Assembly (NCBI RefSeq): GCF_004168365.1
Contig: NZ_CP035704.1
Coordinates: 4,526,001 to 4,590,000, forward strand
Reading direction: 5' to 3'
Length of the DNA: 64,000 bases
From: Pseudolysobacter antarcticus
Lineage (GTDB): Bacteria; Pseudomonadota; Gammaproteobacteria; Xanthomonadales; Rhodanobacteraceae
Each line of letters opens with the position of its first letter. Positions within the stretch are counted from its first letter, which is position 1. Below the pieces are notes generated by a model. That model was given only the letters and a program-made list of their open reading frames with translations. It was not told the origin of the DNA and made no database searches. This document shows positions 4,166 through 46,215 of this stretch, one piece after another. Position numbers and translations under genes: made by a program.

Positions 4166-4178
4166 GTGAAGGATAAAC

Positions 4179-5643: not shown

Positions 5644-5666
5644 CCTAACTAGATCGGATCACACAC

Positions 5667-10656: not shown

Positions 10657-10686
10657 GAGCTGTTGGGTGTCGGCGGAAGTACGAGG

Positions 10687-10715
10687 AGTGTGGATTTGCG
10701 GCACGGAGCTGTCAA
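10687..10715 (-). promoter_or_regulatory. Candidate bioB promoter
   Basis: On the minus strand a perfect -35 hexamer TTGACA (10710-10715) is followed after 17 bases by CACACT (10687-10692), which matches TATAAT at three of six positions. It sits about 30 bases before the bioB ATG, in the short divergent region shared with comF. The -35 is good and the -10 weak, as for a regulated promoter. Confidence 0.35.
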
Positions 10716-13098: not shown

Positions 13099-13286
13099 TC
13101 GCACACGTGAGCGGTGGTTAGGCGCTCAGCTCAATTGCGTCATGTAATTGATTCGAGAATTGCCGCACCAATGGTCATCGTACGATGCACAACGAACTCG
13201 CAGCGTCATAATAACGGGCTGAAGAGCAACGAAAATTCATACAGCGCATGGCGCTCGTCACGTTACCGCATACACCGGAGAGAATA

Positions 13287-13562: not shown

Positions 13563-13583
13563 GTATCGGTTGCCGAGATCGAT

Positions 13584-16263: not shown

Positions 16264-16417
16264 GCAACTTCTCCACGCAGTGAATGAGGATCACCAGTGG
16301 GCCATGCGCGCGAATGAAGCGCATGAAATGCAAATGAAGAATTATGAAGCGTGTGTAGCAGCGCCGATCGCCACGGTTTGTGGCGCGACGATGGTGCTCA
16401 TGTCGAAGAGCCCGTCC

Positions 16418-17389
16418 TCAGGCGACTGCTGCCAATTGAGCTTGCTCGGCCTGCTCGATGCGGCTGCGCTCCGCCGCCTGACGACACATCGGCTCGCAGG
16501 TGCGCGAGAACAACTCCGTCACCCACTCAAGGAACGCCTGCACGCGCGCCGAAAGATGCCGCTTCTGCGGATACACCACCCACAGCGGCGAGCCGGTCGA
16601 AATGGTATCGGTCATGACGATCTGCAGCAGCCCCTGCGCGAGATGGATCGCGGCGAGACAATGCGGCGCCTGCACGATACCGAGGCCGGCCACCGCGGCT
16701 TGAATCACCGACTCACCATCGTTGATCAGCATGTGCGCATCTATATCGACACCCACGCGACCGCTCGGCGTATCGAACTGCCATTGATAGGGCCGGCGCG
16801 TGGCTGGATCGACGAAGTTGATGCACCGATGTTTCTTCAGATCCTCGATGCTGACCGGCGTGCCGTACTGCTGCAGATAATCCGGCGAGGCGCATAGCAC
16901 ATTGTTGAAATAGCCGATCTTGCGCGCAATCAGATCGGAGTCCTCGAGTGCGCCCATGCGGATCGCGCAATCGAAACCTTCTTCGTTGAGGTCGAACGGG
17001 AAATCGCGCATCGACATGTCAATGCGGATATCCGGAAACTGCGCCTCGAACTTGGCGAAGTTCGGAATCAACGCACCGCGACCGATCGCCGTCGGCACCG
17101 CGATGCGCAGACCGCCGCTCGGCTTGGTGCGCGAATAACCGAGCGCTTCCTTGGCCTCGCTGAGATCGGCCAGGATGTCGCGGCAACGTGCATAAAACGC
17201 GGCGCCATCATCGGTCAGGCGCAAGGTGCGGGTCGAGCGAAAAAACAGTTTGGCGTCGATTTGTTCTTCGAGCCGGGCGATCGCCCGACTCACGCCGGAC
17301 GGTGTCATTTCCAATTGTTGCGCTGCGGCAGAAAAGCTCTTGGCTTCCACCACACGGACAAAAACGCTGATCGCAGAAAAGTCTTCCAT
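16418..17389 (-). CDS. LysR-family regulator, divergent from RND efflux operon
   Basis: 323 residues with an N-terminal winged helix (FSAISVFVRVVEAKSFSAAAQQLEMTPSGVSRAIARLE, shown here in part as SFSAAAQQLE, about 17-26) and a LysR effector domain. It is transcribed away from the MFP-RND-OMF operon across a 136-base region holding a 23-base inverted repeat, the layout of MexT-MexEF-OprN-like systems. It is probably the efflux operon's regulator. The C-terminal tail beyond residue 300 is short and polar. Confidence 0.92.
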   Translation of the reverse strand: MEDFSAISVFVRVVEAKSFSAAAQQLEMTPSGVSRAIARLEEQIDAKLFFRSTRTLRLTDDGAAFYARCRDILADLSEAKEALGYSRTKPSGGLRIAVPTAIGRGALIPNFAKFEAQFPDIRIDMSMRDFPFDLNEEGFDCAIRMGALEDSDLIARKIGYFNNVLCASPDYLQQYGTPVSIEDLKKHRCINFVDPATRRPYQWQFDTPSGRVGVDIDAHMLINDGESVIQAAVAGLGIVQAPHCLAAIHLAQGLLQIVMTDTISTGSPLWVVYPQKRHLSARVQAFLEWVTELFSRTCEPMCRQAAERSRIEQAEQAQLAAVA

Positions 17390-17418
17390 AGCGGCAAACT
17401 CCGGCTGATTGGTGACTC

Positions 17419-17441
17419 AGAATCACAAGTGAGGTGATTCT
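17419..17441. promoter_or_regulatory. Inverted repeat, probable LysR operator for efflux operon
   Basis: Perfect 8-base arms AGAATCAC and GTGATTCT separated by 7 bases, midway between the divergent LysR and MFP starts. Arm length and spacing suit a LysR-type dimer site. It starts 30 bases upstream of the LysR ATG and ends 85 bases before the MFP ATG. Confidence 0.6.
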
Positions 17442-17525
17442 AATCCTATTTATCGCTCCATGCGCAAGGTCTACAGTGGTAATCCTGCGCCGGGAGCCTC
17501 CGGTGGAGTTATCCAAGGATTTGCC

Positions 17526-30447: not shown

Positions 30448-31668
30448 ATGTTAGGCCGCACCACGTTGTTGCTGAATCGTATTTCGCGTGTCGTTTTCCG
30501 CAAAAGTTTTATCGCCATTGCCGTGCTGGTTGTGGGTGGTTACGAGCTGGTCAAGCATCCGCCGATCGAGAGTGTCGAGCGCGGCCAGGTCGGCATTCGC
30601 ATGAACCGATTCAGCGGTTCGGCGACGCCGCTCGGTGAAGGCGCGGTGCTGATGATTCCGGGCTTGCACGAACTGCGTCGTTATTCGCTGCAGGATCAGA
30701 CCTACCATCCCGAGCAGAGCAGCAAGGCCAATGGCGCGGCGCCGTTTCAATCGTCCGAAGGTTTGTCGCTCGGCGTCGATCTGACGATTCGTTATGCACT
30801 CGACCCGACCAAGCTCGTGGCGATTTCGAAAAACCTGCCGACCGATATCAACAGCGAGCTGGTCGAACCGCTGGTGCAAGGCGTGATCTACAAGGTGTTC
30901 ACACGCTACACCGTGCGCGAAATTTTTTCGACGAAACGCCAAGAGCTGCAAGATGTGATCGAAACCGAATTGAAGCCGTTGCTGGCCGCGGATGGACTGG
31001 TGTTGCGCCGCGTGATGATGGGCAATGTCGATCTGCCGCCGGACTATCGCGCGGGTATGGACAAGCTGCTCGCGGTGGAACTCGAAACCGAAAAAATGCA
31101 ATACACGCTGCAGTTGAAAGAGAAGGAAGTGAAAGAAGCCGAGCTGCAAGGCGATGCCGAAAAAGTGAAGCGCGACAAGGCCGCCGAAGCCTCCGCCAAC
31201 GAACAGATCATCGCCGCCAAGGCGCAGGAAGAAGCGATGAAACATGTGCTGCCGTTCAAGCAGCAGCAGATCGAACAACGCAAGCTCGAAGCCGAGGCCG
31301 ACAAGGGCTCGCGCATAAAGATTGCCGAGGGCACGGCCGAAGCGCGACGCATCGAAGCCGCCGGTGAAGCCGACTCGCGCCACAAGCTCGCCGACGCCGA
31401 AGCGTATCGACTCGAACTGGTCGGCAAGGTCGCGAGCAACCAGCTCGAACGCGATGGTGAACTCATCACGCGCCATCCGCTGCTGATCCAGAAAACCCTG
31501 GCAGACAAATTGTCGGACAAGATCTCGGTGATCATCGCGCCACCGCCGACCGATGGCGGATTTATCGGCTCGGCACTACTCGGCGGCATGCAACGCGGGC
31601 GCGATGGCAAGAGCAATGCCGTAGCAGAGTCGGATGCAAAAACCAGCGCCGCCGGGGAGTCCGAATAA
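30448..31668 (+). CDS. SPFH/band-7 (prohibitin-like) membrane protein
   Basis: 406 residues. Residues about 20-36 form a membrane anchor (FIAIAVLVVGGYELV). The SPFH domain spans about 42-220 (ESVERGQVGIRMNRFSG, LSLGVDLTIRYALDPTKL, SNLPPDYRAGMDKLLAVE-like boundary), then a long charged coiled coil (about 225-345, rich in EKEVKEAE and KQQQIEQRKLEAEADKG). The tail is glycine rich. Such proteins form large ring or cage scaffolds around membrane proteases or microdomains. It is coupled to the following gene by a one-base overlap. Confidence 0.88.
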   Translation: MLGRTTLLLNRISRVVFRKSFIAIAVLVVGGYELVKHPPIESVERGQVGIRMNRFSGSATPLGEGAVLMIPGLHELRRYSLQDQTYHPEQSSKANGAAPFQSSEGLSLGVDLTIRYALDPTKLVAISKNLPTDINSELVEPLVQGVIYKVFTRYTVREIFSTKRQELQDVIETELKPLLAADGLVLRRVMMGNVDLPPDYRAGMDKLLAVELETEKMQYTLQLKEKEVKEAELQGDAEKVKRDKAAEASANEQIIAAKAQEEAMKHVLPFKQQQIEQRKLEAEADKGSRIKIAEGTAEARRIEAAGEADSRHKLADAEAYRLELVGKVASNQLERDGELITRHPLLIQKTLADKLSDKISVIIAPPPTDGGFIGSALLGGMQRGRDGKSNAVAESDAKTSAAGESE

Positions 31669-33143
31669 TGCAACTGGTACGCATCGTCGTCGCAATTTTC
31701 AGCTTGGTCATGATGCAATCCGCGATCGCCGATCCGGCGCCCGCGGACAAGCCAACTGTTACCGCGATCGTCACCCAGGATCAAACCGCGCTGCGTGCCG
31801 CCGCGCGCGATTCGGCGCAACAACAAGCGGTGTTGTGGCAAGGCGATACGCTGGAGGTGCGCGGTCAACGTCAGGATTTTTTGCAGGTCTATGATCATCG
31901 CCGCGAGCGCGCGGGTTACGTGCGCGCGGCGCAGGTTCGCCTGCTGCCACTGGAAGCGGACAACGCCGCGGAGCTTCTCGCCGTGGTGCGTTTCCTGCGC
32001 GAAACGCCGGGCGCCGAGGCGATGGGTATCGCTTACGCTGCGGCTTATCTCAAGGCTGCACCGGCGAGCGCGATTGGCGCGGAGCCGTTTGATGCGCTCG
32101 GCACGATGGCCGAGCGGCTGGCGCGGCGCGCATCGTCGCACCACGCGAAGGCCGACGATGCGGTGATTGCCGCGCATCTCGAAGTCGTGGCGAACTACGG
32201 TATTGTCATCAGCAGTTTCGAGCGCGAGGGCCGCATGCAACTCTGCTACGACGGCGAAGCGTTTCGTCGCGTGCTGGCGTTGAACGCAACCGACGAACAG
32301 AAAGCGCGCGCGGCGTTGGCGTTGACGCGTGCGGAATGTATCGATCCCGATCTCACACCGACCAATCGCGCCAGTCTCGATAGCTGGCGCGGTGAAGTGC
32401 TGGCGCGCGCACCGCGTGCCAATTTGCCGGAGCATATAAAAAATCGTCTGCGCCTGCGTAGCGCGTCGGTCTGGGCCAGCATCGCTTTCGAGCGCACGCG
32501 CCGCGGCGAACCGGCGCAAGAAGCGGGCAACCTCGCAATGCAGGAACTGGCTGCCGTGAGCAAAACCGAGTTGGCCGAAGACGATGCAAGCGCCTACAAC
32601 GATGCCGCCGCGCACGTCGGCGCATCACGCTGGGCAAGCGCGACGGTGCATACACCATCAACCGCATTGCGCGTGGTGACGAGCGCGGGCAAGACCGGCG
32701 AAACCTGCATCGCATTGCTCGATGCAAAACATGATCAGGCCGCACCACTGGCGCAACGTTGCACGTTCGCGATTGTCTGGCCGGATTCAGCCGCGGCGAA
32801 TGCGCAAGGCACGGCGCTCGCGCTCGCCGTGCAGCCGCTGGATAGCTGGCGCGAGCTGTGGTTGTTTCATCATACGAGCGACGGCTGGCGCATCGATGTC
32901 GTGCCGCCCGCAGCGGGCGATCCCGAACTCGGTTATGTCGAATTCGCCGGTTGGATTCCAGGCGCCGACAAGGTACTGACCGCGCGCGAGGCGCGTATCA
33001 ACGGCCGCTTCGAGCGCAGCTTCGATATCCTCGAAATGCAGACGCTCGCGGTCGAGAAACACGCCGATAGCCCAAGCTCGCTGACGCTGTTTTATCGCTG
33101 GCAGGATCCGGCGTGGAAACACCAGACAGTGAGTTTGCGTTGA
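31668..33143 (+). CDS. Unknown secreted protein coupled to SPFH gene (SH3-like N-terminus)
   Basis: 491 residues; the start ATG shares the last base of the SPFH stop (taATG). Signal peptide about 1-22 (QSAIA). Residues about 28-85 resemble a bacterial SH3 domain (AIVTQDQTALRAAARDSAQ, DTLEVRGQRQDFLQVYDHR, AGYVRAAQVRLL). The middle (about 95-310) is helical and the last 170 residues are beta rich, ending RWQDPAWKHQTVSLR. I do not recognise the whole protein. Coupling suggests it works with the SPFH scaffold on the periplasmic side; that is inference. Confidence 0.75.
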   Translation: MQLVRIVVAIFSLVMMQSAIADPAPADKPTVTAIVTQDQTALRAAARDSAQQQAVLWQGDTLEVRGQRQDFLQVYDHRRERAGYVRAAQVRLLPLEADNAAELLAVVRFLRETPGAEAMGIAYAAAYLKAAPASAIGAEPFDALGTMAERLARRASSHHAKADDAVIAAHLEVVANYGIVISSFEREGRMQLCYDGEAFRRVLALNATDEQKARAALALTRAECIDPDLTPTNRASLDSWRGEVLARAPRANLPEHIKNRLRLRSASVWASIAFERTRRGEPAQEAGNLAMQELAAVSKTELAEDDASAYNDAAAHVGASRWASATVHTPSTALRVVTSAGKTGETCIALLDAKHDQAAPLAQRCTFAIVWPDSAAANAQGTALALAVQPLDSWRELWLFHHTSDGWRIDVVPPAAGDPELGYVEFAGWIPGADKVLTAREARINGRFERSFDILEMQTLAVEKHADSPSSLTLFYRWQDPAWKHQTVSLR

Positions 33144-33296
33144 TGGTTTGATTTATCGCACAGCGTGCGCCGATTGGTGCATGGGAGAACGATGACTATC
33201 GCACCTTGGATATCTATCGGGCTTGAACAGGCGTATTACGGAGTGCCGCACAAGCGTTAGACTCGCGACTTGTTTCTCTCGCTTGGAGCCGCGCCG

Positions 33297-34895
33297 ATGC
33301 AGACCGAACACAGCGATGTGTTGATCCTTGGCGGCGGCTTGGCCGGCCTCACGCTGGCGATCCAGTTGCGCCGCGAATTGCCGACACTCACGGTGCGTGT
33401 GCTCGAACGCAATCGCCATCCGGTGCCGGAAGCCGCGTTCAAGGTCGGCGAATCGTCGGTCGAAATCGGCGCACATTATTTCGAGAGCGTGCTCGGGCTC
33501 AAGGCGCATTTGAATGATCGCCAGCTGCGCAAATTCGGTTTTCGTTTTTTCTTCAGCGAGGGCCGCGATGATGTTGATCGCACCACCGAACTCGGCGTGA
33601 GTGAAGTTTTGCCGACGCCGAGTTATCAGCTCGACCGTGGCATCTTCGAAAATTATCTGGCCGAACACGCCGCCGAACTCGGCGCAGAATTCATTGACGG
33701 CGCAACCGTGCGCACGATCGAGCTTGCCACCAACGGCAGTGCGTCGCATAGCGTGAGTTTTACGCGCGACGGCACCGAGCATGCCGCGCAGGCGCGTTGG
33801 CTGATCGATGCCAGCGGACGCGCCGGCCTGCTCAAGCGCAAGCTCGATCTTGCCGAGAGCAATGCGCACGATGTCAACGCGATCTGGTTTCGCATCGACC
33901 AACGCATCACCATCGATGACTGGTCGGACGATCCCGCGTGGTGCTCGCGCTGCACGCCGGCTGAGCGCTGGCGCTCCACCAATCATCTGTGCGGCCCGGG
34001 TTATTGGGCGTGGCTGATTCCGTTGTCGTCGGGCTCGCATTCGGTCGGCATTGTCGCCGACGCCGGCTTGCATCCGCTGGAAACCATCAACACTTTCGAC
34101 AAGGCGATGGCGTGGTTCGCCGAGCATCAGCCGCGCCTGTATCGCGAGCTCGACGGCCACCGCGAACACTTGCAGGATTTCGCTTTTCTGCGGCATTTTT
34201 CACATGGCTGCAAGCAGGTTTTCTCGCGCGATCGCTGGGCGTTGACCGGCGATGCCGGATTGTTTCTCGACCCGTTCTATTCGCCGGGCAGCGACTTCAT
34301 CGCGATCGGCAATACCTACATCACCGCGCTGATCGGGCGTGACAGTCGCGGTGAAAACTTCGCGCGCGAGGCACGCATTTACGAGCAGCTTTATTTTTCG
34401 TTCTATCGCAACACGCTGGCATTGTACGAAGGCCAATATCCAATGTTCGGCCACGCCGAGTTCATGCCGCTGAAAGTGACTTGGGACTACGCCTATTACT
34501 GGGGCGTGCTGTGCCAGTTTTTCTTCCAGCGACGGCTCACCGACGTTGCACTATTCATGCGTTTGCAACAGCCGCTCGCGGCGAGCGAAGCGCTGAATCG
34601 CGATGTGCAATTACTGTTGCGCCGCGCCGCTGGCAGCGCGATAGGCAAAAATCCGACGCAGATGATGGATCAATGTCAGCGACCGTGGTTCGTCGAACTC
34701 AACCGCGGCCTGCGCGATAGCCTCGATGTTGTCGCGCTGGAGCAACGCATTCGCGACAACATCACGATGCTCGATAATCTGGCCGCTGAAATCCTCGGTT
34801 ACGTGCAAGCGAATGGCTCGGCAGAACTCGATGACCTTCCGGCGCTCGCGGCACTCAGCCCGCGTGCTCCACATCTGCTGGGCACGTCGATTTGA
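33297..34895 (+). CDS. FAD-dependent monooxygenase/halogenase-like flavoprotein
   Basis: 532 residues from ATG 33297, which has GGAG about 9 bases upstream. The FAD-binding GGGLAG (about 14-19) follows strand DVLILGG; VGESSVE near 49-55 is shared by tryptophan halogenase-like proteins. The flavin-dependent halogenase signature WxWxIP is present as WAWLIP at residues 237-242, and GDAGLFLDPFYSPGSDF is the second FAD motif near 318-335. The C-terminal 130 residues are helical. The WxWxIP motif blocks monooxygenation in true halogenases, but the substrate and halogenating activity are unproven. No biosynthetic gene cluster surrounds it. A diverged copy of its last codons lies at 38052. Confidence 0.8.
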   Translation: MQTEHSDVLILGGGLAGLTLAIQLRRELPTLTVRVLERNRHPVPEAAFKVGESSVEIGAHYFESVLGLKAHLNDRQLRKFGFRFFFSEGRDDVDRTTELGVSEVLPTPSYQLDRGIFENYLAEHAAELGAEFIDGATVRTIELATNGSASHSVSFTRDGTEHAAQARWLIDASGRAGLLKRKLDLAESNAHDVNAIWFRIDQRITIDDWSDDPAWCSRCTPAERWRSTNHLCGPGYWAWLIPLSSGSHSVGIVADAGLHPLETINTFDKAMAWFAEHQPRLYRELDGHREHLQDFAFLRHFSHGCKQVFSRDRWALTGDAGLFLDPFYSPGSDFIAIGNTYITALIGRDSRGENFAREARIYEQLYFSFYRNTLALYEGQYPMFGHAEFMPLKVTWDYAYYWGVLCQFFFQRRLTDVALFMRLQQPLAASEALNRDVQLLLRRAAGSAIGKNPTQMMDQCQRPWFVELNRGLRDSLDVVALEQRIRDNITMLDNLAAEILGYVQANGSAELDDLPALAALSPRAPHLLGTSI

Positions 34896-34905
34896 GGGCG
34901 TATCG
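34809..34905 (+). repeat. Direct repeat copy 1 (3' end of flavoprotein gene)
   Basis: 97 bases covering the last 28 codons, the stop and the following 12 bases of the flavoprotein gene. They align without gaps to 38052-38148 with about 20 mismatches (about 79% identity by eye), many of them synonymous. The identity is complete across TTTGAGGGCGTATCG at the stop. Confidence 0.8.
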
Positions 34906-34939
34906 TCCACAAGAGCAACTCGATCAAGGTAACCGTGCA

Positions 34940-35027
34940 GGCAGGCTGTCGGTGAAGGCAACGCCCTCTAGAGACACACCTGCGTTTGAATTGGTGACAG
35001 TGAAGGTCAGCGAACTGTTGCTGTTCA
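34940..35027 (-). pseudogene. Orphan fragment of the 125-residue repeat, outside the mosaic gene
   Basis: On the minus strand this stretch reads LNSNSSLTFTVTNSNAG then VSLEGVAFTDSLPA, clearly the N-terminal third of the repeat found twice in the neighbouring gene (LNSTTSLTFTLTNPNAG...). It begins at the stop codon of the 35025 gene in a different reading frame and cannot be translated with it. It is a relict left by recombination or a lost third repeat. Confidence 0.8.
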
Positions 35028-37820
35028 GTTATAGGGCGGGAAGGCGGGTGCCAGGATCACCTTCACCGCGTAGTTGAAATCATCGGCGACAAACACGTTG
35101 CCGCTGGCATCCACCGCGACACCGCGGGGGTTGGCGAACTCGCTGCTGACTGTGAATATTTTCGTGTAGCCGCCAGCCGGCATAATCACCTTCACCGCGT
35201 TGTTGAAGGTATCGGCGACGAATACATTGCCGCTGGTATCCAAGGCGACGCCAAAGGGCTTGTAGAATCCGCTGCCGAGCGTGTTGACCGTCGTATAGCC
35301 AGGCGCCAGGATCTTCTTCACGGCGTTGTTGAGGAAGTCGGCGACGAATACATTGCCGCTGGCATCGACCGCGACGCCGGTGGGCGAGCTGAACCCGCTG
35401 CCGAGCGTGTTGACCGTCGTATAGCCTGGCGCCAGGATCTTTTTCACCGCGTTGTTGTTGAAATCAGCGACGAAAACGTTGCCGCTGGCATCGACGGCGA
35501 CGCCGGCAGGATGGTTGAATCCGCTGCCGAGCGTGATGACCGTTGTATAGGCGGGCGCGAGGATCTCCTTCACTGCGTTGTTGTAGGTATCGGCGACGAA
35601 CACGTTGCCGCTGGCATCGACGGCGAGACCGTAAGCGAGGCTGAACCCGCTGCCGAGTGTGTTGACCGTGCTATAGCCGCCAGCGGCCAGGATCTCTTTC
35701 ACAGTGCTGGTGGCGTAATCGGCGAAGAACACATTGCCGCTGGAATCGACGGCGACGCCCCACGGACGTGCGCTCGAGATGTCGCCCTCATAAAGCGTTT
35801 TGACCGTTGCAGCCTCGAACCCTTCGCAGTAGACCGTGTCGTTGCGTGTGCACAACGAGACCGTCAACGTCGCATTCGACGTGTTGCCGATGCCGCTAGT
35901 CGTGGAGGTCACCTGTACGCTGTTGTTCTTCACGCCGAGCGTCGTGCCCTTCACGCCCACCGCCACCGTGCATGAGGTGCCACCGGCCAGTGTTGCGCCC
36001 GATAGGCTCGCCGAGGATGCCCCCGCCACGGCCGTCGCGGTGCCGCCGCAGGTGTTGGTCAATCCATTCGGCGTGGCAACTTCCAGTCCCGCAGGAAAGC
36101 TGTCGGTGAAGGCAACGCCCGTCTGCGACGCACCCGCGTTCGGATTGGTGACGGTGAAAGTCAGCGACGTAGTGCTGTTTAGCGAAAGCCTTGCTGTACC
36201 AAATACTTTCGCGATGCTCGTTGGCAACGTCCCGACGGTTAACGTCGCATTCGACGTATTGCCGACACCGCCATTCGTGGAGGTCACCTGTACGCTGTTG
36301 TTCTTCACGCCGAGCGTCGTGCCCTTCACGCTCAACCCCACCGTGCAGGAGGCGCCGCCGGCCAAGGTTGTACCCGATAAGCTCGCCGAAGAAGCCCCCG
36401 CGATAGCTGTCGCGGTACCGCCGCAGGTGGTCGTCAATCCATTCGGCGTCGCCACCACCAGCCCGGCCGGCAGGCTGTCGGTGAACGCCACGCCTGTCAG
36501 GGATCTTCCCGCGTTCGGATTGGTGAGTGTAAATGTCAGCGATGTGGTGCTGTTCAGCGTAATCGCTGCCGCGCCAAAGACTTTCGTGATCATCGGTGGC
36601 GCCGTCGATTCCGCCAGCGTCGCTTCCACCGCGCCGATATCGCATTGCGGGCCTTGCGGACGAGCAATGCCGCGTTGATCTGTGGCTGGCGCATTCGTGC
36701 AGGTGAGTGCATCGATCGCTGGGCTGCCGGGCAGCGGCAGCATGGTCCAGGTCGGGCCGCCGTTATTGGCCAAGACGCCGAGTTGGGGATTGCCGCCGAT
36801 GATATTGCCTGAAGAACCGGCCCCCGGGCTCGTATTGCTGCCACTGATATCGGGACCCACGTTACCGGCGATGATCGAATTGATCGCCACAGGTGCAGTA
36901 GCACTATTGTTTTGGATGCCGCCGCCCGAACGGTTACCCGGGACTTGGTTCGCGCTGATCGTGCTGTTTTTCAGCGTCATGCCACCGCCTAACATGTAGA
37001 TACCGCCGCCGCTATCGTTTACCGTCGAATTTCCGCTGATTGTACTGTTGGTCAGCGTGAGGTTGCCCGCGATATAGATACCGCCGCCGCCGTAGAAAGA
37101 ACTATTTCCGCTGACGGTGCTGTTGACCAGCGTGAGGGTACTCCGCGAAGCGATGCCACCGCCCTGAGTTGCACTATTTCCGCTGACCGAGGTGTCAATC
37201 AGGGTCAGAAAACCATCTGACTCGATGCCACCGCCCAAGCCCCCCTGGTTGCCGCTGATCGTGCAGTTCATCAGCGTGAGATGCCCGTTTGCGAACGCAT
37301 TTAGTATGGCGCCGCCCGAGTTGCCGGAGCCATTGGTCAGGGTGAGAGAATTCAACGTGAGCGAGCCGCCACCCGGCTGGCTTTGGTCGATGATGCCGAA
37401 GCTGTTGCTAGCGCCGGACGGGCGCTGGATCGTCACCTGACCATTCGCATTAGCGTCGAGGGTGAGTTGGGCATCGCTGATCGACAGCACATTCGTACTG
37501 ACATCAGCAAGCGTGATCGTGTTAGCGCCGCCCACAGGAAACGTGGTGGCGTCGAAATTGATGATGTCGTTGCTATGGAATCCTATCGCTGAGCTGTTCA
37601 CGCAGGCGGTGCCCGCCAGAGAGCCGGTATTCATCGAAACGATCGCCTGGCGCAATGTGCAAGTGGCTGCGCTGCCCGCATCGCCGGAGGATTTCACAAT
37701 GATCGTGGCGGCAATGCCGGCGAGTGGCGTGAGGCCCAGACCCAGCGCTAGCGCCAACGCGAGCGGACGCCGCATGACGGTCGTGACACGGCGAGCGAAA
37801 ACCGATTCGGAAGTACGCAT
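35025..37820 (-). CDS. Mosaic secreted protein: beta-helix, two 125-aa repeats, six NHL repeats
   Basis: 931 residues. Signal/transmembrane segment about 15-38 (LALALALGLGLTPLAGIAA). Residues about 45-400 form a right-handed parallel beta-helix (SGNSATQGGGIASRST, LTNSTISGNST...) ending in the choice-of-anchor Q segment SPAIDALTCTNAPATDQRG and CDIGAVE. Then come two 125-residue repeats (about 405-655) similar to DUF11-type surface domains, then LCTRNDTVYCEGFEAAT, and finally six NHL repeats of 42-43 residues (about 685-925). It is probably displayed at or secreted from the cell surface. CEGFE looks like the C-terminal tag of related proteins stranded inside, so the NHL part may be a later fusion. 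Nearly identical repeats at DNA level suggest recent expansion. Confidence 0.8.
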   Translation of the reverse strand: MRTSESVFARRVTTVMRRPLALALALGLGLTPLAGIAATIIVKSSGDAGSAATCTLRQAIVSMNTGSLAGTACVNSSAIGFHSNDIINFDATTFPVGGANTITLADVSTNVLSISDAQLTLDANANGQVTIQRPSGASNSFGIIDQSQPGGGSLTLNSLTLTNGSGNSGGAILNAFANGHLTLMNCTISGNQGGLGGGIESDGFLTLIDTSVSGNSATQGGGIASRSTLTLVNSTVSGNSSFYGGGGIYIAGNLTLTNSTISGNSTVNDSGGGIYMLGGGMTLKNSTISANQVPGNRSGGGIQNNSATAPVAINSIIAGNVGPDISGSNTSPGAGSSGNIIGGNPQLGVLANNGGPTWTMLPLPGSPAIDALTCTNAPATDQRGIARPQGPQCDIGAVEATLAESTAPPMITKVFGAAAITLNSTTSLTFTLTNPNAGRSLTGVAFTDSLPAGLVVATPNGLTTTCGGTATAIAGASSASLSGTTLAGGASCTVGLSVKGTTLGVKNNSVQVTSTNGGVGNTSNATLTVGTLPTSIAKVFGTARLSLNSTTSLTFTVTNPNAGASQTGVAFTDSFPAGLEVATPNGLTNTCGGTATAVAGASSASLSGATLAGGTSCTVAVGVKGTTLGVKNNSVQVTSTTSGIGNTSNATLTVSLCTRNDTVYCEGFEAATVKTLYEGDISSARPWGVAVDSSGNVFFADYATSTVKEILAAGGYSTVNTLGSGFSLAYGLAVDASGNVFVADTYNNAVKEILAPAYTTVITLGSGFNHPAGVAVDASGNVFVADFNNNAVKKILAPGYTTVNTLGSGFSSPTGVAVDASGNVFVADFLNNAVKKILAPGYTTVNTLGSGFYKPFGVALDTSGNVFVADTFNNAVKVIMPAGGYTKIFTVSSEFANPRGVAVDASGNVFVADDFNYAVKVILAPAFPPYN
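35091..35760 (-). repeat. Six tandem NHL-coding repeats, 126-129 bases each
   Basis: The segment that encodes SGNVFVAD recurs with its gaacacgttg-like core at about 35091, 35220, 35346, 35472, 35598 and 35727, giving a period of 126 or 129 bases (42-43 codons). Units are highly similar at DNA level. All are in frame within the mosaic gene. They are protein repeats, not a CRISPR array. Confidence 0.85.
35866..36605 (-). repeat. Two tandem 375-base repeats coding DUF11-like domains
   Basis: Two in-frame units of 375 bases (125 residues); for example caatccattcggcgt occurs at 36060 and 36435. Each encodes KVFG...LNSTTSLTFT.TNPNAG...GVAFTDS.PAGL.VATPNGL and CTV....KGTTLGVKNNSVQVTST. A third, broken copy lies at 34940-35027. 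Confidence 0.85.
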
Positions 37821-38273
37821 TGCGCTGGCCCCTGTGCCGAAGATTTGGGAATGTAGCAGACATCGGCGGCGCCCTGGTCGGCATATCCGTGACGCTTCTT
37901 TAATCTCTGCCTATCGGGTGGTTACGATTTTGTCAGGCGGCTGCGTGTTCAGCCTGGAAGCAGAATGACGTCGCGTCGATAAGCTCCCAGCTAGCAATGG
38001 CGGGATCTGCGTCGCGGCATTGAGAATTCGTCACTTGACGCGGCACGGCTCGCGAATGGTGCCGTAGAGCTAGATGATCTTCCAGCACTCGCGGCACTTG
38101 GGCCACGCATTTCATATCTGCTAGGCACGTCGGTTTGAGGGCGTATCGTTTGTGGTAACCCTTGATCCAAGGTTTTCGTGGACAGATTTCACTAGCACGT
38201 TAGATCATCAATGTGAAAGCAACAGGACGGCAATCGGGTCTCTGCGGTGCCCGTCCTCCTGGAGATACTCACC
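37821..38273. other. Intergenic region containing a gene relict
   Basis: About 453 bases between the mosaic gene start and the peroxiredoxin-like gene. The central part holds the relict at 38052-38148 described separately. Elsewhere I see no gene. The sequence just after the relict (cttgatccaagg...cgtgg) weakly resembles that after the intact flavoprotein gene, as if homology ran past the stop. Confidence 0.6.
38052..38148 (+). pseudogene. Relict 3' end of a second flavoprotein gene (direct repeat copy 2)
   Basis: In frame it encodes ANGAVELDDLPALAALGPR then ISYLLGTSV and a stop, against ANGSAELDDLPALAALSPR, APHLLGTSI and a stop in the intact gene. The gapless match with many synonymous changes shows it evolved as coding sequence before being truncated. 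No upstream coding homology remains nearby. It indicates a lost tandem paralogue. Confidence 0.8.
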
Positions 38274-38915
38274 ATGTTTCGACTATTTGCTATCGCATGC
38301 CTCATTCTCGGCGCTTCTATCACGCAGGCAGCCGGCATTGCCGACAGCGCTGAAACCGTCACGCCCGTCTTGATCGGGACACATGTTCCCGACATCAAGG
38401 TCCGTGCGCTTGATGGCAACTTGCAGTCCCTCGTGGGAATCGCCGCGGGAAAACCAACAGTGCTGGTGTTTTACCGGGGTGGATGGTGTCCGTTCTGCAA
38501 TCTGCAACTGAGCCAACTGAACGGTATTGAAAACAAACTCTCAGCCATGGGTTATCAGATCGTCGCGCTGACACCGGATCCACCGGAACAGATCAAGAAA
38601 ACGCTGGACAAGCACGGCCTGAAATACGCGATCTATTCCGATACTGATCTCGCTGCAATCAAGGCGTTCGGCGTGGGTTTCCGCCTGCCGGAATCGACCG
38701 TGGAAAAATATCGCGGCTACGGCATCACGCTCTCGCACGCTCCCGGCGAAACCGAAAACGTGTTGCCGGTACCTTCGGTTTTCGTCATCGATGCCGAGGG
38801 CGTTGTTCAGTTCGTTTATGTCAATCCCGACTACCGAATTCGTTTGTCTTCCGAGTTGTTGCTGACCGCGGCGAAGACGAGTCTGAAAGTCAAAGCGCTG
38901 GAACCCAAGAAGTAG
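38274..38915 (+). CDS. Secreted peroxiredoxin-like (AhpC/TSA, redoxin) protein
   Basis: 213 residues, ATG 38274 with GGAG 10 bases upstream. Signal peptide about 1-19 (ITQAAG). Thioredoxin-fold core with VFYRGGWCPFCNLQL, giving a CxxC pair at C72 and C75, the AhpC/TSA-like peroxiredoxin motif rather than the PxxxTxxC of classical peroxiredoxins. Further: LTPDPPEQIKKTL and VPSVFVIDAEGVVQFVYVNPDY. It is probably a periplasmic thiol peroxidase or reductase. Nothing in the operon context adds detail. Confidence 0.88.
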   Translation: MFRLFAIACLILGASITQAAGIADSAETVTPVLIGTHVPDIKVRALDGNLQSLVGIAAGKPTVLVFYRGGWCPFCNLQLSQLNGIENKLSAMGYQIVALTPDPPEQIKKTLDKHGLKYAIYSDTDLAAIKAFGVGFRLPESTVEKYRGYGITLSHAPGETENVLPVPSVFVIDAEGVVQFVYVNPDYRIRLSSELLLTAAKTSLKVKALEPKK

Positions 38916-39114: not shown

Positions 39115-39783
39115 TCAAAAAAATGTCGTGTACTGATCCAGCGCGAAGCGTGTGATATCCGGCACCTGGCAACCCACTGCCGGATATCCTGCGACCAGCA
39201 CGAGGAACGGCATCTCGTTCTTGCCACGACCAAGGATCTCGTTGAGAAATCCCATAGGACTGGGAGTGTGCGTCAACGTCGCGATGCCGGCGTGGTGGAG
39301 TGCTGCGATCAGGAAACCACAGGCGATACCGACCGACTCATGTGGGTAGTAGCGCTTGGACTTCAGCCCCTCGGCATCGAGCCCGAAGCGTTCGTAGAAC
39401 ACGGCGATCAGCCACGGTGCAATGTCGAGAAACGGCTTTTCGGCATGAGTCCCCAGCGGTGCCAGAGCCGCCAGCCAATCCGGCGGCGCACGATGTGTGT
39501 AGAACTCACGCTCCTCCTCTTCTGCCGCAACTCGGATACGATGCTTGATCTGGGCATCGGCGACGGCCATGAACCGCCACGGCTGCTGATGAGCACCACT
39601 CGGAGCAGTGCCGGCGGCGCGCAGACAATTTTCGATCACTTCACGCGGGATCGGTCGATCTGAAAATTCGCGCACGGTACGTCGACGCGAGAGTTCAATC
39701 GCAAAGTCACGCGAACGCTCAAGCATTTCGGGTTCGGAAAAACTGCGATAGCCAGCAAGCGGTACAAATCTGGCTTCCGTCAT
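39115..39783 (-). CDS. Nitroreductase family protein, iodotyrosine deiodinase-like
   Basis: 222 residues from ATG 39783 (a TTG two codons upstream is possible). FMN-dependent nitroreductase fold: [17 protein letters not shown] (about 33-49) binds the flavin phosphate, and [14 protein letters not shown] (about 60-73) is typical of the IYD subgroup. [20 protein letters not shown] resembles the IYD C-terminal region. It may reductively dehalogenate or reduce aromatic substrates. Without the IYD active-site lid residues being checked by alignment, substrate remains open. Confidence 0.85.
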
Positions 39784-40046
39784 GGCCAAACATTCTCCAG
39801 ATCATGGGCGCGTGGATACCATTCGCGAATAATCATAAACCGCGCCACGTTTGCCGGATAGTCGCTCCTTGGCAGTGCTCGGCATGGTTCGCAACCAACA
39901 ATCAACACTCAATCACCGCAGTGTTTGACGCGGTTCGCGCCAGTATTTCAGAGAACCGCATTGATCAACTGAGGTGTAGTGGGGTAACTAGACTGTTGCC
40001 AAACTCATCACGTTGAAAACTTGCTTGACGCGAGACGACGAAAGAA

Positions 40047-40871
40047 TCAAAACCGCCCTTCCGTCCGCTCCAGCACCTTGTCGCGCAACGCCAGCAGTTT
40101 CGGTCCAAAATCCTGCAGCAGTTTTTCTCGTGTCATGACCGACACGCGTCCGCTGCAATTGAACGCGAGTACGCGGCTGCCGTCAGCGGAAACCAGCGGT
40201 ACGCCGATCGCAAAAACTTCGGCGTTCCAGTCGCCCATCGAGAAACAGAATCCGTAGTTCTGATAGTCCTGCCGCGCACGCACGATGCCGGCGCGAATGC
40301 GTGGCCAGTAGCCCGGCTCGCATTCTTTTTCCAGATTGATTAGGTACTGCGCGAAGGCCTCGTCGGAACGCGACGCCAGATCGGCGCGGCCCAACGCGGT
40401 CGAGCCGTGCGGCACGCGTGCGCCAGCCGTGAGGTTCATCTGGAAGGTCGCATCGCCCTGGCAGACTTCGAGCAAGACCATGCGGTGATGGTCGCGATCG
40501 CCTTCGGCCAGCATCACCGCCGACTGGGTGTAGTCGGCCAGTTCGCGCATCAGCGGGCGCGCGATCGCGAGCACGTCGTTGCCCTTGATCAAGGCGTGGC
40601 CGAGCGACAGCACCGCCGTGCCGAGCGCGTATTTTTCCAGCGCGGCGCTGTAGCTCAAATACCCCAGCGCGGCGAGGGTGAAGGTCAGGCGCGATACCGT
40701 GGTTTTCGGCAAACCGGTTTGCCGCGCGATATCCTGATTTCCCAGATACTGCGCGCCTTGTTCGAAGCAGCGCAGGATCGAAAACGCACGCGCCACCGCG
40801 CTGACGAATTGCGGATGGCTGTCGTCGATGTTCTGCGCAAAGGTGTGGCTAGCGCGCTTCGGACTACCCAT
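40047..40871 (-). CDS. IclR-family regulator of the acyl-CoA regulon
   Basis: 274 residues. An N-terminal winged helix (about 19-80: VARAFSILRCFEQG, QDIARQTGLPKTTVSRLTFTL) and a GAF-like effector domain (about 95-265). It follows the ACAD gene at 40905 by 33 bases on the same strand and is probably cotranscribed with it. Its likely sites are the GGAAC-type dyads at 42176-42314 between the two divergent arms of the cluster, which would allow autoregulation. The effector is probably an acyl-CoA or free acid. Confidence 0.93.
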   Translation of the reverse strand: MGSPKRASHTFAQNIDDSHPQFVSAVARAFSILRCFEQGAQYLGNQDIARQTGLPKTTVSRLTFTLAALGYLSYSAALEKYALGTAVLSLGHALIKGNDVLAIARPLMRELADYTQSAVMLAEGDRDHHRMVLLEVCQGDATFQMNLTAGARVPHGSTALGRADLASRSDEAFAQYLINLEKECEPGYWPRIRAGIVRARQDYQNYGFCFSMGDWNAEVFAIGVPLVSADGSRVLAFNCSGRVSVMTREKLLQDFGPKLLALRDKVLERTEGRF

Positions 40872-40904
40872 GCGCTACTCCTCGCCAATCCGCGCTAAAG
40901 GCAA

Positions 40905-42137
40905 TCATGCGGTGGTGCGAATCGTGTGCCGCGCAAGTTCGAGCTTGGCGATGGTGGCGCGATGCACTTCGTCCGGGCCATCGGCGAGGCGCAAGGTGCG
41001 GATGCCGGCATACAGGCTCGCGAGTGGAAAATCCTGGCTCACGCCGGCGCCGCCGTGCGCCTGGATGGCCCAGTCCAGAATCTGGCAGGCCATGCTCGGC
41101 GCGACCACTTTGATCATCGCGATTTCGGCACGCGCCACCTTGTTGCCAACTGTATCCATCATCGATGCGGCCTTCAGCGTGAGCAGCCGCGCCTGCTCGA
41201 TCATGCAACGCGAGTCGGCAATGCGCTCGTGCCAGATCGAGTGATCGGCGATGCGTTTACCGAACGCCACGCGTGTTTGTACGCGCTGGCACAGCAGTTC
41301 GAGCGCACGCTCCGCCGCGCCGATGATGCGCATGCAATGGTGGATGCGGCCCGGCCCCAATCGTCCCTGCGCGATCTCGAAACCGCGACCTTCGCCGAGC
41401 AACAAATTACTGACCGGCACACGCACGTCGCGCAGTTCGATTTCCATATGGCCGTGCGGCGCATCGTCGTAACCGAACACCGACAACGGACGCAGCACTT
41501 CGATGCCTTTGCTTTCGGCCGGCACCAGCACCATCGATTGCTGCTGATGACTGGCGGCGTCTGGATCGGTCTTGCCCATCACGATGTACAGCGCGCAACG
41601 CGGATCGCCCGCGCCGGAGGCAAACCACTTGCGGCCGTTGATCACATATTCATCGCCATCGCGGCGAATCGAGCACTGGATATTGGTCGCATCCGACGAC
41701 GCCACGGCAGGTTCGGTCATGAGGAAAGCCGAGCGGATTTCGCCGGCCAGCAACGGTTCGAGCCAACGATCTTTTTGTGCCTCAGTGCCGTAACGTTCGA
41801 TGGTTTCCATGTTGCCGGTATCAGGCGCGGAACAGTTGAAAACCTCCGACGCCCACGTCACGCGACCCATGATTTCGCACAGCGGCGCGTATTCGAGATT
41901 CGACAATCCTTCCGGCGCGCGTGGTGAGCGCGGCAGGAACAAATTCCACAAACCGAGCTCGCGAGCACGGGGTTTCAGTTGCTCGATCACAGCGGTCGGA
42001 ATCCACGCATTGCCGGTATCGCGGTTGCGCTGAATTTCCTGCAGGTACGCCGCTTCGTTCGGATAAATATACTGATCGAAGAAGCGCGTGAGTTCGGCGC
42101 GCAAAGCTTCGACTTTCGGAGTGTAGGAAAAATCCAT
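40905..42137 (-). CDS. Acyl-CoA dehydrogenase, ACAD10/11-like
   Basis: 410 residues with the full ACAD fold: FAD contact segments [17 protein letters not shown] (about 137-153) and [15 protein letters not shown]; arginine-rich middle; C-terminal [37 protein letters not shown]. Where classical medium-chain enzymes have the catalytic Glu (IYEGT), this one has LADGPDEVH, the pattern of ACAD10/11 proteins with Asp at that position. It is divergent from the fadJ-type gene and upstream of iclR. It opens the acyl-CoA oxidation pathway in this regulon; the substrate may be unusual. Confidence 0.92.
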
Positions 42138-42446
42138 GCGAGATCCCGTCTGTGGATAGAGATTTAATTCCGTGATACGGAACTATGTTCTGTAATCGAA
42201 TGGCATCCTAAAAGGCTCTATCCACATTCGCAAGCGTATGCTCTGACTCTTGTCGAAGTGGCGAGGTGTCGGTACGATATCGGGCGTCCAGAACAAAGTT
42301 CCATTCTACGGAACTTGAGTGTGCCTGGTGCACGGAAACGGCAACACCGCTCTTGCGCGCAAACTCACGGCTTGGCAGGGACAAAAGCGGCCCGAATATC
42401 CCACCGATACGTCATAACGATCCATCACCACCACGCAGGAAAAAAG
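42138..42446. promoter_or_regulatory. Divergent control region of the acyl-CoA regulon with IclR-like boxes
   Basis: 309 bases between the divergent ACAD and bifunctional enzyme genes. It carries TACGGAACTATGTTCTGTA (42176-42194, arms TACGGAAC and GTTCTGTA), CAGAACAAAGTTCCA (42289-42303) and a further half-site TACGGAAC (42307-42314). The shared GAAC-nnn-GTTC core resembles IclR-family operators. No gene is credible here. Confidence 0.55.
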
Positions 42447-44531
42447 ATGTCAGTCAGCTACGAAATCCATGACGGCATTGCCGTACTCACCCTGGCCAAT
42501 CCGCCGGTCAACGGCCTCGGCATCGCCACGCGTCGTGGCTTGGTGGAATCGTTGACCCAGGCCCTGGACGATGCGCAAGTGCGCGCGATCGTGGTCAGCG
42601 GTGGCGAGCGCGCTTTTTCCGGTGGCGCCGACATCCGCGAATTCAACACGCCACAGGCCGAGCAGGAACCGACCTTGCCGACCGTGATCGCCGCGTTCGA
42701 ACGCAGCAGCAAACCCGTGGTGGCTGCGATCAACGGACTCGCGCTCGGCGGTGGCCTTGAACTGGCCCTCGGCACCAACTATCGCGTCGCCAGCAGTCGC
42801 GCACAAATCGGCTTGCCGGAAGTGAAACTCGGCTTGCTGCCGGGCGCTGGCGGCACGCAGCGTCTGCCGCGCGCGGTGGGTTTGGAAGCCGCCACCAACA
42901 TGATCGTTTCCGGTACGCCGGTGGCAGCGTCGTTACTGGCCAAGACCCGACTTTTCGATCGCGTAGTCGACGGCGATGCGCTGGAAGCCGCGATAGCCTT
43001 GGCGCGCGAAGTCGCGAGCAGCGGCGCAAAACTGCCGAAGGTGCGCGACTGGAAAATCAAGCACGAAAACGCCGAAGGTTTTCTCGGCTTTGCGCGCACC
43101 GCGGTTACCGCCGCATCGGTTAATTATCCGGCGCCGTTGAAATGTCTGGATGCGATCGAAGCGGCGGCGTTGAAGCCGTTCGATCAAGGCATGCAGGTCG
43201 AACGCGAGGCCTTCGCCCTGCTTATCCAGACACCGGAATCCAAGGCCTTGCGCCACGGCTTTTTCGGCGAGCGCGCCGCGGGCAAGATCGCCGACATCGG
43301 CGCGGACGTGCCGCTGCGCGAAATTCGCCGGGTCGGCGTGATCGGCGCCGGCACGATGGGCGGTGGCATCAGTATGAATTTCCTCAACGCGGGACTTCCG
43401 GTGACGTTGCTGGAAACCAAACAGGACGCACTCGATCGCGGCCTCGCCACGATCCGCAAGAACTACGAGAACAGCGCGAAGAAAGGCAAGCTGACCGCCG
43501 AACAGGTCGAGCAGCGTTTGGCGTTGATCACGCCGACCTTGTCGTACGAAGATTTGAAAGATGCCGATCTGATCGTCGAGGCAGTGTTCGAGGAATACAG
43601 CGTCAAGCAGGCGGTGTTCACCCAGCTCGATGCGGTGGCCAAACCCGGTGCAATCCTCGCAAGCAATACCTCGACGCTAGACGTCGATCGCATCGCCGCA
43701 TTTACCGCACGCCCGCAGGATGTGCTCGGCATGCATTTTTTCAGCCCGGCGAACGTCATGAAATTGCTCGAAGTCGTGCGCGGCAAACAGACGGCCAAAG
43801 ACGTGCTGGCGACGGTGATGGCGCTGGCGAAAAAGATCGGCAAGACCGCCGTGGTATCGGGCGTGTGCGACGGTTTTATCGGCAATCGCATGATCGAGCA
43901 ATACAGTCGCCAGGCCGGATTTCTGCTTGACGAAGGCGCGCTGCCGCAGCAGGTGGATCGCGCGATGGAAAAGTTCGGTTTCGCGATGGGGCCGTTCCGC
44001 ATGGGCGACCTCGCCGGCAACGATATCGGCTGGGCCATCCGCAAACGTCGTGCGCTAGAAAAACCCGATCTGACCTACTCGAAAACCGCCGACCTGATTT
44101 GCGAACTCGGTCGCTACGGCCAGAAAACCGGCGCAGGCTGGTACGACTACAAACCCGGCGATCGCAATGCGCATCCATCCGCCGAGGTGAATGCGCTGAT
44201 CGAAAAACATTCCGCGGATATCGGCCTGAGCCGACGTGCGATCAGCGACGAGGAAATCGTCGAGCGACTGGTCTACGCGCTGGTCAACGAGGGCGCGCAC
44301 ATTCTCGCCGAAGGCATCGCGGCCAAGGCATCGGATATCGACATCGTTTATCTGGCCGGTTACGGCTTCCCGATCTGGCGCGGCGGCCCGATGTTTTATG
44401 CCGACAGCGTTGGCCTGTACAACGTGCTCGCGGCGATGCGCCGTTATGCCAAAGGCCATGAGGGCAAAGCCTGGGAACCCGCACCGCTGCTGGTGCAACT
44501 GGCTGAGGCCGGCCAGTCGTTCAACCGCTGA
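42447..44531 (+). CDS. Bifunctional enoyl-CoA hydratase / 3-hydroxyacyl-CoA dehydrogenase (FadJ-like)
   Basis: 694 residues from ATG 42447. The crotonase domain (about 1-185) has GGERAFSGGADIREF and the oxyanion/catalytic stretch NGLALGGGLELALGTNYRVA, with Glu in GLPEVKLGLLPGAGGTQ. The dehydrogenase half starts with RVGVIGAGTMGGGISMNF (about 297-314, NAD) and contains HFFSPANVMKLLEVVRG, then two C-terminal helical domains. It performs two successive beta-oxidation steps. It is followed 27 bases later by the thiolase gene. An upstream open stretch from 42258 lies in the control region and was excluded. Confidence 0.95.
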   Translation: MSVSYEIHDGIAVLTLANPPVNGLGIATRRGLVESLTQALDDAQVRAIVVSGGERAFSGGADIREFNTPQAEQEPTLPTVIAAFERSSKPVVAAINGLALGGGLELALGTNYRVASSRAQIGLPEVKLGLLPGAGGTQRLPRAVGLEAATNMIVSGTPVAASLLAKTRLFDRVVDGDALEAAIALAREVASSGAKLPKVRDWKIKHENAEGFLGFARTAVTAASVNYPAPLKCLDAIEAAALKPFDQGMQVEREAFALLIQTPESKALRHGFFGERAAGKIADIGADVPLREIRRVGVIGAGTMGGGISMNFLNAGLPVTLLETKQDALDRGLATIRKNYENSAKKGKLTAEQVEQRLALITPTLSYEDLKDADLIVEAVFEEYSVKQAVFTQLDAVAKPGAILASNTSTLDVDRIAAFTARPQDVLGMHFFSPANVMKLLEVVRGKQTAKDVLATVMALAKKIGKTAVVSGVCDGFIGNRMIEQYSRQAGFLLDEGALPQQVDRAMEKFGFAMGPFRMGDLAGNDIGWAIRKRRALEKPDLTYSKTADLICELGRYGQKTGAGWYDYKPGDRNAHPSAEVNALIEKHSADIGLSRRAISDEEIVERLVYALVNEGAHILAEGIAAKASDIDIVYLAGYGFPIWRGGPMFYADSVGLYNVLAAMRRYAKGHEGKAWEPAPLLVQLAEAGQSFNR

Positions 44532-44558
44532 TCCACCACGCTACGATCGGGAAAACAC

Positions 44559-45737
44559 ATGAAAGAAGCAGTTATCGCATCCACCGCACGCACCGGTCTG
44601 GCCAAGAGCTGGAAGGGCGCCTTCAACATGACGCACGGCGCGACGCTCGGCGGTCACGTCGTGCAGCACGCGGTCGCACGCGCCGGCATCGATCCGGCCG
44701 AAGTTGAAGATGTGCTCATGGGTTGCGCCAATCCGGAAGGCGCGACCGGCGTCAATATCGCGCGACAAATTGCGTTGCGCGCGGGCTTGCCGGTGACTGT
44801 ACCGGGCGCGACCGTGAATCGTTTCTGTTCGTCCGGTTTGCAGACGATCGCGATGGCCGCGCAGCGTGTGATCGCGGGCGAAGGCGATATCCATGTCGCC
44901 GGTGGCGTGGAAAGTATTTCGTGCGTGCAGCCATACACAAATATGCACATGCTCAGCGAAGGCTGGCTGCTCGAACACAAGCCGGAGTTGTACTGGCCGA
45001 TGTTGCAGACCGCCGAAACCGTGGCCAAACGTTACGGTATTTCGCGCGAACGCCAGGATCATTACGGCGCCGAAAGTCAGCAGCGCGCGGCAGCAGCCGC
45101 AGCCGCCGGAAAATTCAACGACGAGATCGTGCCGATCACCGTGCTCGCGGGGGTTGCCGATCCGAAAACGCTGCAACTGTTGACGCGCGAAGTGACCGTG
45201 ACTGCTGATGAAGGCATCCGCGCCGACACGACGTACGAAGGCGTTGCGAAGATCCGCAGCGCACTCCCCGGCGGTGTGATTTCAGCCGGCAATGCGAGTC
45301 AGTTTTCCGACGGCGCATCGGCGGTCGTGGTGATGGATGGCAAGCTCGCCGAGCAGCGCGGGATCAAGCCACTTGGCATCTTTCGCGGATTCGCGATTGC
45401 CGGTTGCGAGCCGGACGAAATGGGAATTGGCCCAGTGTTTGCCGTGCCGAAACTGCTCAAGCGCGCCGGCCTGAAAGTCGACGATATCGGCCTGTGGGAA
45501 CTCAACGAAGCGTTTGCCGTGCAGGTGTTGTACTGCATGGATACGCTCGGCATTCCGCACGACCGCATCAATGTCAACGGCGGCGCGATCGCGGTCGGCC
45601 ATCCGTACGGCGTGAGCGGCGCGCGGCTGGTCGGCCATGCGCTGATCGAGGGCAAACGCCGCGGCGTGAAATACGCAGTGGTGACGATGTGTGTCGGCGG
45701 TGGTCAAGGTGCCGCGGGCTTGTTCGAAATCGTCTGA
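44559..45737 (+). CDS. Acetyl-CoA C-acyltransferase (thiolase)
   Basis: 392 residues. The nucleophile Cys90 is in [15 protein letters not shown]; the His is in [16 protein letters not shown] near 349 and the second Cys in [12 protein letters not shown] near 379. This is the standard degradative thiolase arrangement. It cleaves 3-ketoacyl-CoA produced by the preceding bifunctional enzyme. The MaoC gene starts 7 bases after its stop. Confidence 0.95.
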
Positions 45738-45744
45738 GCGCGCC

Positions 45745-46215
45745 ATGCAAATCATCGAAAATCTTGAGGCCTTGTCGGGCTGGATCGGTCGCGAAGTCGC
45801 GTGCAGCGATTGGCTCGCCATCGATCAACAGCGCATTCAGCGTTTCGCCGAAGCCACCGGCGATACGCAATGGATTCATGTCGATCCCGAACGCGCGCGC
45901 CGCGAATCGCCGTACCAATCCACGATCGCGCACGGTTACCTGACGCTATCGTTGATCCCGATACTGATGCAATCCTGCGTGCGTATCGATGGCATCGGCA
46001 TGGCGATTAATTACGGCCTCGATCATGTGCGCCTGCCCGCGCCGGTGCGTGTGAACGAGCGCATCCGTGCGCGCATTGTGCTTGATCGCATCGAGCCCGT
46101 GAGCGGCGGAATCCAGGTGTTCTGGTCCGCCATCGTCGAAATTGAAAACGGTGATAAACCCGCCTGCGTCGCGCAGATGCTGGTGCGTTATTACGCCGTC
46201 GCCACAGCCACCTGA
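45745..46215 (+). CDS. MaoC-like (R)-enoyl-CoA hydratase
   Basis: 156 residues, one hot-dog domain. The hydratase-2 motif is FAEATGDTQWIHVDPERA with catalytic Asp and His, followed by STIAHGYLTLSLIP. It hydrates 2-enoyl-CoA with the stereochemistry opposite to the crotonase, so the pathway may use a branched, ring or side-chain substrate needing both types. Preceded by the thiolase with 7 bases between; followed by ACAD genes. Confidence 0.9.
   Translation: MQIIENLEALSGWIGREVACSDWLAIDQQRIQRFAEATGDTQWIHVDPERARRESPYQSTIAHGYLTLSLIPILMQSCVRIDGIGMAINYGLDHVRLPAPVRVNERIRARIVLDRIEPVSGGIQVFWSAIVEIENGDKPACVAQMLVRYYAVATAT

Follow-up and report, generated by a model that had tools for sequence, protein, structure and literature searches.

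Homology-facilitated illegitimate recombination has been described in Acinetobacter, Streptococcus pneumoniae, Pseudomonas stutzeri and Escherichia coli (PMC3240628, PMC2884548; here and below, the cited papers are represented by excerpts). Recombination of this kind has also been proposed for variable segments of E. coli (PMC2884548). For effector genes of Vibrio cholerae, an additive route has been suggested in which the resident gene tail is displaced (PMC5361080). Among the papers listed by literature searches for Pseudolysobacter and for genes of the choice-of-anchor or DUF11 type, none dealt with this topic.

Here we analyse a locus of Pseudolysobacter antarcticus at which the end of a flavoprotein gene recurs on the far side of a large surface protein gene. 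The locus lies in a stretch of 64,000 nucleotides that was analysed as a whole and is called the window. It is a real insertion fossil, well explained by known recombination, and the recurrence of the pattern beside surface genes is worth following.

Structure of the locus

The flavoprotein gene remains whole and is followed by the surface gene on the opposite strand and a second copy of its own 3' end (Table 1). Its product scores 53.9 bits against PF04820 (cut-off 21) and contains the WxWxIP motif as GYWAWLIP; by these marks it is a member of the Trp_halogenase-like family, with putative halogenation activity.

Table 1. Features of the flavoprotein locus, numbered from the first base of the window.
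Feature	Position	Strand	Basis or remarks
Flavoprotein gene, Trp_halogenase-like, 532 aa from ATG at 33297	33297..34895	+	ORF; Pfam PF04820, E 1.8e-14
Copy 1 of the direct repeat	34809..34906	+	Last 28 flavoprotein codons, stop and 11 bases beyond
Possible continuation of the repeat	34907..34936	+	Against 38150-38180; 34/2000 shuffles as good; weak
DUF7933 fragment, out of frame, beyond the surface gene's stop codon	34937..35028 (92 bases)	-	Contains a TGA and a TAA
Mosaic surface gene, 931 aa: choice-of-anchor Q domain, two DUF7933, NHL repeats	35025..37820	-	ORF, domain profiles
Copy 2 of the direct repeat	38052..38149	+	Relict flavoprotein tail; remainder of gene absent
AhpC/TSA-type redox protein (peroxiredoxin) gene adjoining copy 2	38247..38915	+	0 matches in MAG G001
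Nitroreductase-family gene	39115..39789	-	No MAG match for the stretch
Resumed synteny with the MAG	40041..45953	.	90.7% identity

The first-pass annotation of the window had described an ungapped repeat of 97 bases, about 79% identical and ending in the same stop, with the surface gene between its copies. Self-blastn confirmed this arrangement and gave a direct repeat of 98 bases at 79.6% identity with 0 gaps (34809-34906 against 38052-38149), at an E value (5e-19) that rejects a chance similarity of the two tails. Only a single position differs in the last 27 bases of the repeat. The likeness may continue past 34906 to about 34936, against 38150 onward, whereas upstream of the repeat, on the 38051/38052 side, no similarity was found (1440 of 2000 shuffles scored equally well). 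A protein search of the P. antarcticus genome with the flavoprotein returned two matches, the gene itself and the relic (29 residues, 72%, E = 1.3e-5). In agreement with this, a DNA search of the same genome with 34750-38260 found no third copy.

The surface gene is the sole long ORF between the copies that is plausible as a gene. Its product has a signal-like stretch at the N-terminus, and its domain types are common among exported beta-rich proteins. The insert starts at 34937 with the DUF7933 fragment, which is 76-83% identical to 36466-36557 and 36091-36182. The intervals 37821-38051 and 38150-38246 showed no similarity to the other loci extracted from the genome, and Rfam and tRNA scans of the window found nothing. 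A PADLOC match to PD-T4-6 on the NHL part (E = 5.9e-13, residues 768-838) covers a short repeat stretch and was given no weight.

As a separate observation, an IFxNGFE-like motif occurs within the last 30 residues of 26 of the 3527 ORFs of at least 150 aa in this genome, compared with 2 of 3527 shuffled tails (examples are L086:3838-5082, L161:288-2162 and L221:18182-19852). The motif resembles a tag at the C-terminus of exported proteins; none of six proteins with such a tail had an NCBIfam match there. The mosaic surface protein carries a variant, YCEGFE, internally (residues 664-669) and ahead of its NHL repeats, which would look like a later extension of an already complete protein.

Divergence of the two gene tails

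Copy 2 translates as ANGAVELDDLPALAALGPRISYLLGTSV-stop and copy 1 as ANGSAELDDLPALAALSPRAPHLLGTSI-stop. Over 29 codons, stop included, the copies differ at 20 bases (6, 2 and 12 at codon positions 1, 2 and 3), which produce 7 amino-acid changes. The codon-substitution check on the shared codons that the first-pass annotation had proposed was run as a simulation, with 20,000 random placements of 20 changes in the flavoprotein tail and a count of those with at most 7 amino-acid changes, an open frame and the stop kept. Random placement led to a mean of 12.2 amino-acid changes, and the observed outcome or a more conservative one had a probability of 0.002. So few amino-acid changes indicate that both tails diverged as parts of working genes before one of them was cut off. 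The earlier view of copy 2 stands up well to these coding-like changes and the shared stop: judged by its codons, it is what remains of the C-terminus of a flavoprotein gene that was formerly functional. As a fragment lacking a start codon, it is most likely inert.

The same topology would follow from a local duplication of the gene end by repair or template switching when the insert arrived, with two initially identical copies of which the second drifted as non-coding DNA. Such an origin would make a donor allele unnecessary. However, drift should not leave 29 codons open with few residue changes, for which the simulations returned P = 0.002 in the flavoprotein tail and 0.0016 in an AraC-family tail described below. 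Moreover, with the homologue in a congeneric metagenome-assembled genome (MAG) as reference, third positions take up a similar share of the changes private to copy 2 and of those private to copy 1. We consider a local duplication distinctly improbable.

Flavoprotein homologues in relatives

Among the matches listed for 233 genomes of the family, 87 genomes carried one close flavoprotein homologue each (4 of these in pieces) and none carried a second; these matches reach E ~4e-17, a level at which short relics would not appear. In the complete match list for 61 relatives, 25 carried a close homologue, none had two close copies, and the sole match of relic type was copy 2 itself. The other matches in these 61 genomes were 25-35% identical, save for the relic and a 41-residue N-terminal match (50%) in G033. 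The congeneric MAG has one homologue.

These counts bear on the model of the first-pass annotation, a true tandem pair of flavoprotein genes whose second member was lost as the surface gene came in or expanded. A tandem pair would place copy 2 downstream of copy 1 in the same orientation, and would let it diverge under selection like a working gene, as we see. It finds no support in the relatives, where a second close homologue is absent from the matches listed for the 233 genomes, from the 61 relatives and from the MAG, and it requires an undocumented paralogue that was kept until it had diverged by 20% and was then nearly wholly deleted. A former tandem pair therefore seems unlikely to us.

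The tails of copy 1, copy 2 and the MAG gene are about equally distant from one another, with identities of 58/77 (copy 1 to copy 2), 59/76 (copy 1 to MAG) and 60/76 (copy 2 to MAG), although a comparison of only ~76 bases of a fast-evolving C-terminus resolves little. Equal distances of this kind fit paralogues no better than they fit alleles from separate lineages. Between copy 1 and the MAG, identity is lower in the tail (58/75) than across the gene body (1353/1512). The tail is likewise more diverged than the gene body in comparison with a Rudaea MAG (49/77), so the divergence between the copy 1 and MAG tails is no proof that copy 1 is foreign.

Comparison with a congeneric genome

The nearest genome and only congener compared, G001, is a fragmented MAG of 85% completeness, in which absences carry little weight. 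Its flavoprotein gene adjoins neither copy 2 nor a surface gene. The search for an empty site in relatives, as suggested by the first-pass annotation, thus gave only a partial answer: the MAG provides a flavoprotein gene free of both elements, but its right flank is unrelated and no clean empty site was found there, nor was donor DNA. In the MAG, a Sel1 gene comes after the flavoprotein gene and a DUF3857 gene lies ahead of the boundary at 40041; neither was found in the P. antarcticus genome by DNA search. From the flavoprotein stop to 40041, the content of the two genomes is wholly different.

The left flank also differs. About 2.4 kb of the window (30840-33245), comprising the end of a band-7-like gene and a 491-aa ORF, have no counterpart in the MAG, whose flavoprotein gene comes after a truncated upstream gene; both flanks of the flavoprotein gene are therefore variable. 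Further upstream, positions 30088 and 30101 of the window delimit a 12-base gap between matched blocks, at which the MAG (L031, G001:C443) carries three genes matching SngA, SngB and SngC (2384-8677; PADLOC). This is a clean presence/absence difference of a cassette that we take to be the Shango defence system.

A homologous surface gene is present in the MAG on contig C719 and matches window positions 34974-36623 at 74.7% identity. It shares the out-of-frame NHL-stop-DUF7933 junction at its 3' end with the window gene. It lies directly behind ssb and its terminator, away from the MAG flavoprotein gene, and the contig ends within the surface gene, which puts the far border outside the contig. 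In the P. antarcticus genome, ssb (88% identical) precedes a DNA alkylation repair gene, and a distant surface paralogue (40%) lies ~6 kb further on.

Similar cases elsewhere in the genome

The surface protein has 32 matches in the P. antarcticus genome, all of which fall in the window or in 15 other loci. We scanned these 15 loci (155,515 bases) for DNA repeats of 60-600 bases with at least 70% identity and a spacing of 0.6-12 kb, and called a pair a relic where one copy held the 3' end of an ORF and the other had no matching ORF. The window, having been the given case, was left out of the count. Four relic pairs were flagged in the surface loci, of which two were accepted (the AraC-family case in L082 and the NHL case in L083) and two rejected.

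In L082 (C2:176000-192000), a paralogous surface gene adjoins an AraC-family gene (PF12833), and the topology is that of the window: an intact AraC-family gene, the surface gene with a Kelch gene, and a relic of the AraC tail. The AraC tail together with the bases just downstream of it (8315-8597, 283 bp) recurs at 3235-3503 with 89.4% identity. The relic spans 59 codons with 11 base changes (1, 2 and 8 by codon position) and 3 residue changes (simulation P = 0.0016). On the left side, a Kelch sequence is followed by a repeat, a (3058-3226), joined directly to relic b; on the right side, the order is Kelch, a' (5299-5467, 91.7% identical to a), surface gene, b' and the AraC-family gene, so that the surface gene parts a' from b'. 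In this arrangement the left side reads as an internal 'empty site' and the right side as a filled one. In L083, an NHL gene tail (14975-15152, 178 bp) recurs at 10415-10590 with 86.5% identity, and the ORFs between the copies match SseB, KfrA_N and HTH, with a HigB-like match below threshold. With its small indels, the L083 relic is a weaker third case, and its source may be a paralogous surface gene.

Other repeat pairs were rejected on inspection. Those of L089 (3124-3263 and 3767-3907; 141 bases, 93.6%) lie outside ORFs, and by eye this repeat resembles a dispersed short repeat family of the same genome. The L088 pair involves the start of a long ORF and of a neighbouring ORF, with one copy cut by the end of the locus, and L083 6347-6717 lies within a repeat-rich surface ORF.

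The control set comprised 57 + 40 = 97 pieces (1,140,000 + 800,000 bases), in which one relic was flagged and none accepted after inspection. The flagged pair, in L162, has its copies inside long adjacent ORFs (13164-15419 and 15473-17449), to which the flagged ORF runs antisense. Control pieces share 1 kb overlaps, two of them (L137 and L238) overlap the surface loci L093 and L096, and L124 and L125, with Kelch-like or repeat-rich genes and many internal repeats, were retained as controls. If the two accepted cases were placed at random over 2.10 Mb, the chance of both falling in surface loci would be ~0.006, a value that rests on small numbers and judgement by hand. These two hand-judged cases may point to an enrichment of tail relics near surface genes. 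In a further control, L228, the flagged repeat has an ORF on each copy: adjacent ORFs with similar 3' ends (8986-9205 and 10469-10688; 220 bases, 77%) are both open and may represent the relic pattern's tandem counterpart in intact form. A scan of ORF C-termini with protein sequences was noisy; it supported the AraC (95%) and NHL (85%) relics and missed the flavoprotein relic, probably owing to low-complexity masking.

The flavoprotein, AraC and NHL cases, together with the MAG homologue that has the same junction behind the ssb terminator, would also suit a model in which surface genes of this lineage move as loose cassettes and come to rest at the 3' ends of genes unrelated to them; every newcomer would supply a substitute tail, and the former tail would persist as a relic. 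We regard such cassettes as rather improbable. A mobile element could also have integrated site-specifically at the 3' end of the flavoprotein gene and supplied a replacement tail of its own, in the way that integrases act on tRNA genes and certain protein genes. The expected footprint is a replaced gene end on one side and a displaced end on the other; the near-identity of the final 27 repeat bases and the MAG homologue of the surface gene, which shares the 3' junction but lies at a different gene end, would fit as well. Yet ORFs and domain profiles revealed the surface gene and no integrase or transposase in the insert, and the repeat search found no framing inverted repeat longer than chance. 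The repeats of the three cases also differ in length (98, 178 and 283), with no obvious common core by eye. Site-specific integration is, in our judgement, very improbable.

Discussion

We favour, with a probability of roughly 0.55, an additive insertion of a relative's DNA that was anchored in the end of the flavoprotein gene and left the displaced end beyond the insert. The coding-like relic, the roughly equal distances between tails and the lack of a second close homologue in the gene-bearing genomes (87 of 233 among the matches listed; 25 of 61) all argue for this reading. It is further supported by the variable interval between the flavoprotein gene and 40041, by the same topology in L082 and by the weaker case in L083. 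The 98-base tail repeat provides homology between the resident locus and one end of the insert.

The donor, a related strain or species, would have contributed a DNA piece with its own flavoprotein gene end and the surface gene. One end of this piece would have recombined with the resident flavoprotein gene, while the other joined, in the manner of homology-facilitated illegitimate recombination, just inside the resident tail at a point lacking homology. A single crossover with a circularised piece could give the same product. This would consist of an intact flavoprotein gene, which may be a hybrid, followed by the surface gene and, beyond it, by a 98-base relic of the displaced gene end. Both the foreign origin of the insert and the two-step joining are what we infer from this arrangement, and either tail, copy 1 or copy 2, may be the resident one. 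The ComEC and DprA families were found in the P. antarcticus genome; as the same searches also match non-competent controls (E. coli), their presence does not show competence.

Short diverged gene tails around an insert document, in legible form, the additive uptake of DNA from relatives. Such relics mark the borders of the insert, reveal the anchor gene and preserve part of a second allele. Should further genomes show the pattern near surface genes, it would offer a simple scan for how large repetitive surface proteins spread and are reshuffled independently of any mobile element.

As far as the excerpted papers go, three described systems come close to this locus. Transformation of S. pneumoniae leaves merodiploids with partial tandem duplications, but these involve ~100-900 kb of resident DNA, in contrast to the 98-283 diverged bases seen here (PMC3784515). 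In the type VI secretion system (T6SS) of V. cholerae, displaced effector 3' ends and orphan immunity genes arise where a new module is anchored in a conserved gene and the old 3' end lies downstream, as in our locus (PMC5361080). Here, however, the anchor (a flavoprotein or AraC-family gene) bears no relation to the surface protein gene carried as cargo, for which no immunity partner is known. Homology-facilitated illegitimate recombination differs in that it was followed experimentally or inferred between strains, whereas our locus is the footprint in a single genome of copies that have diverged by 20%. The product expected from such recombination has a homologous end, a non-homologous end, new DNA between them and a displaced resident segment (PMC3240628, PMC2884548), an arrangement that our locus would match.
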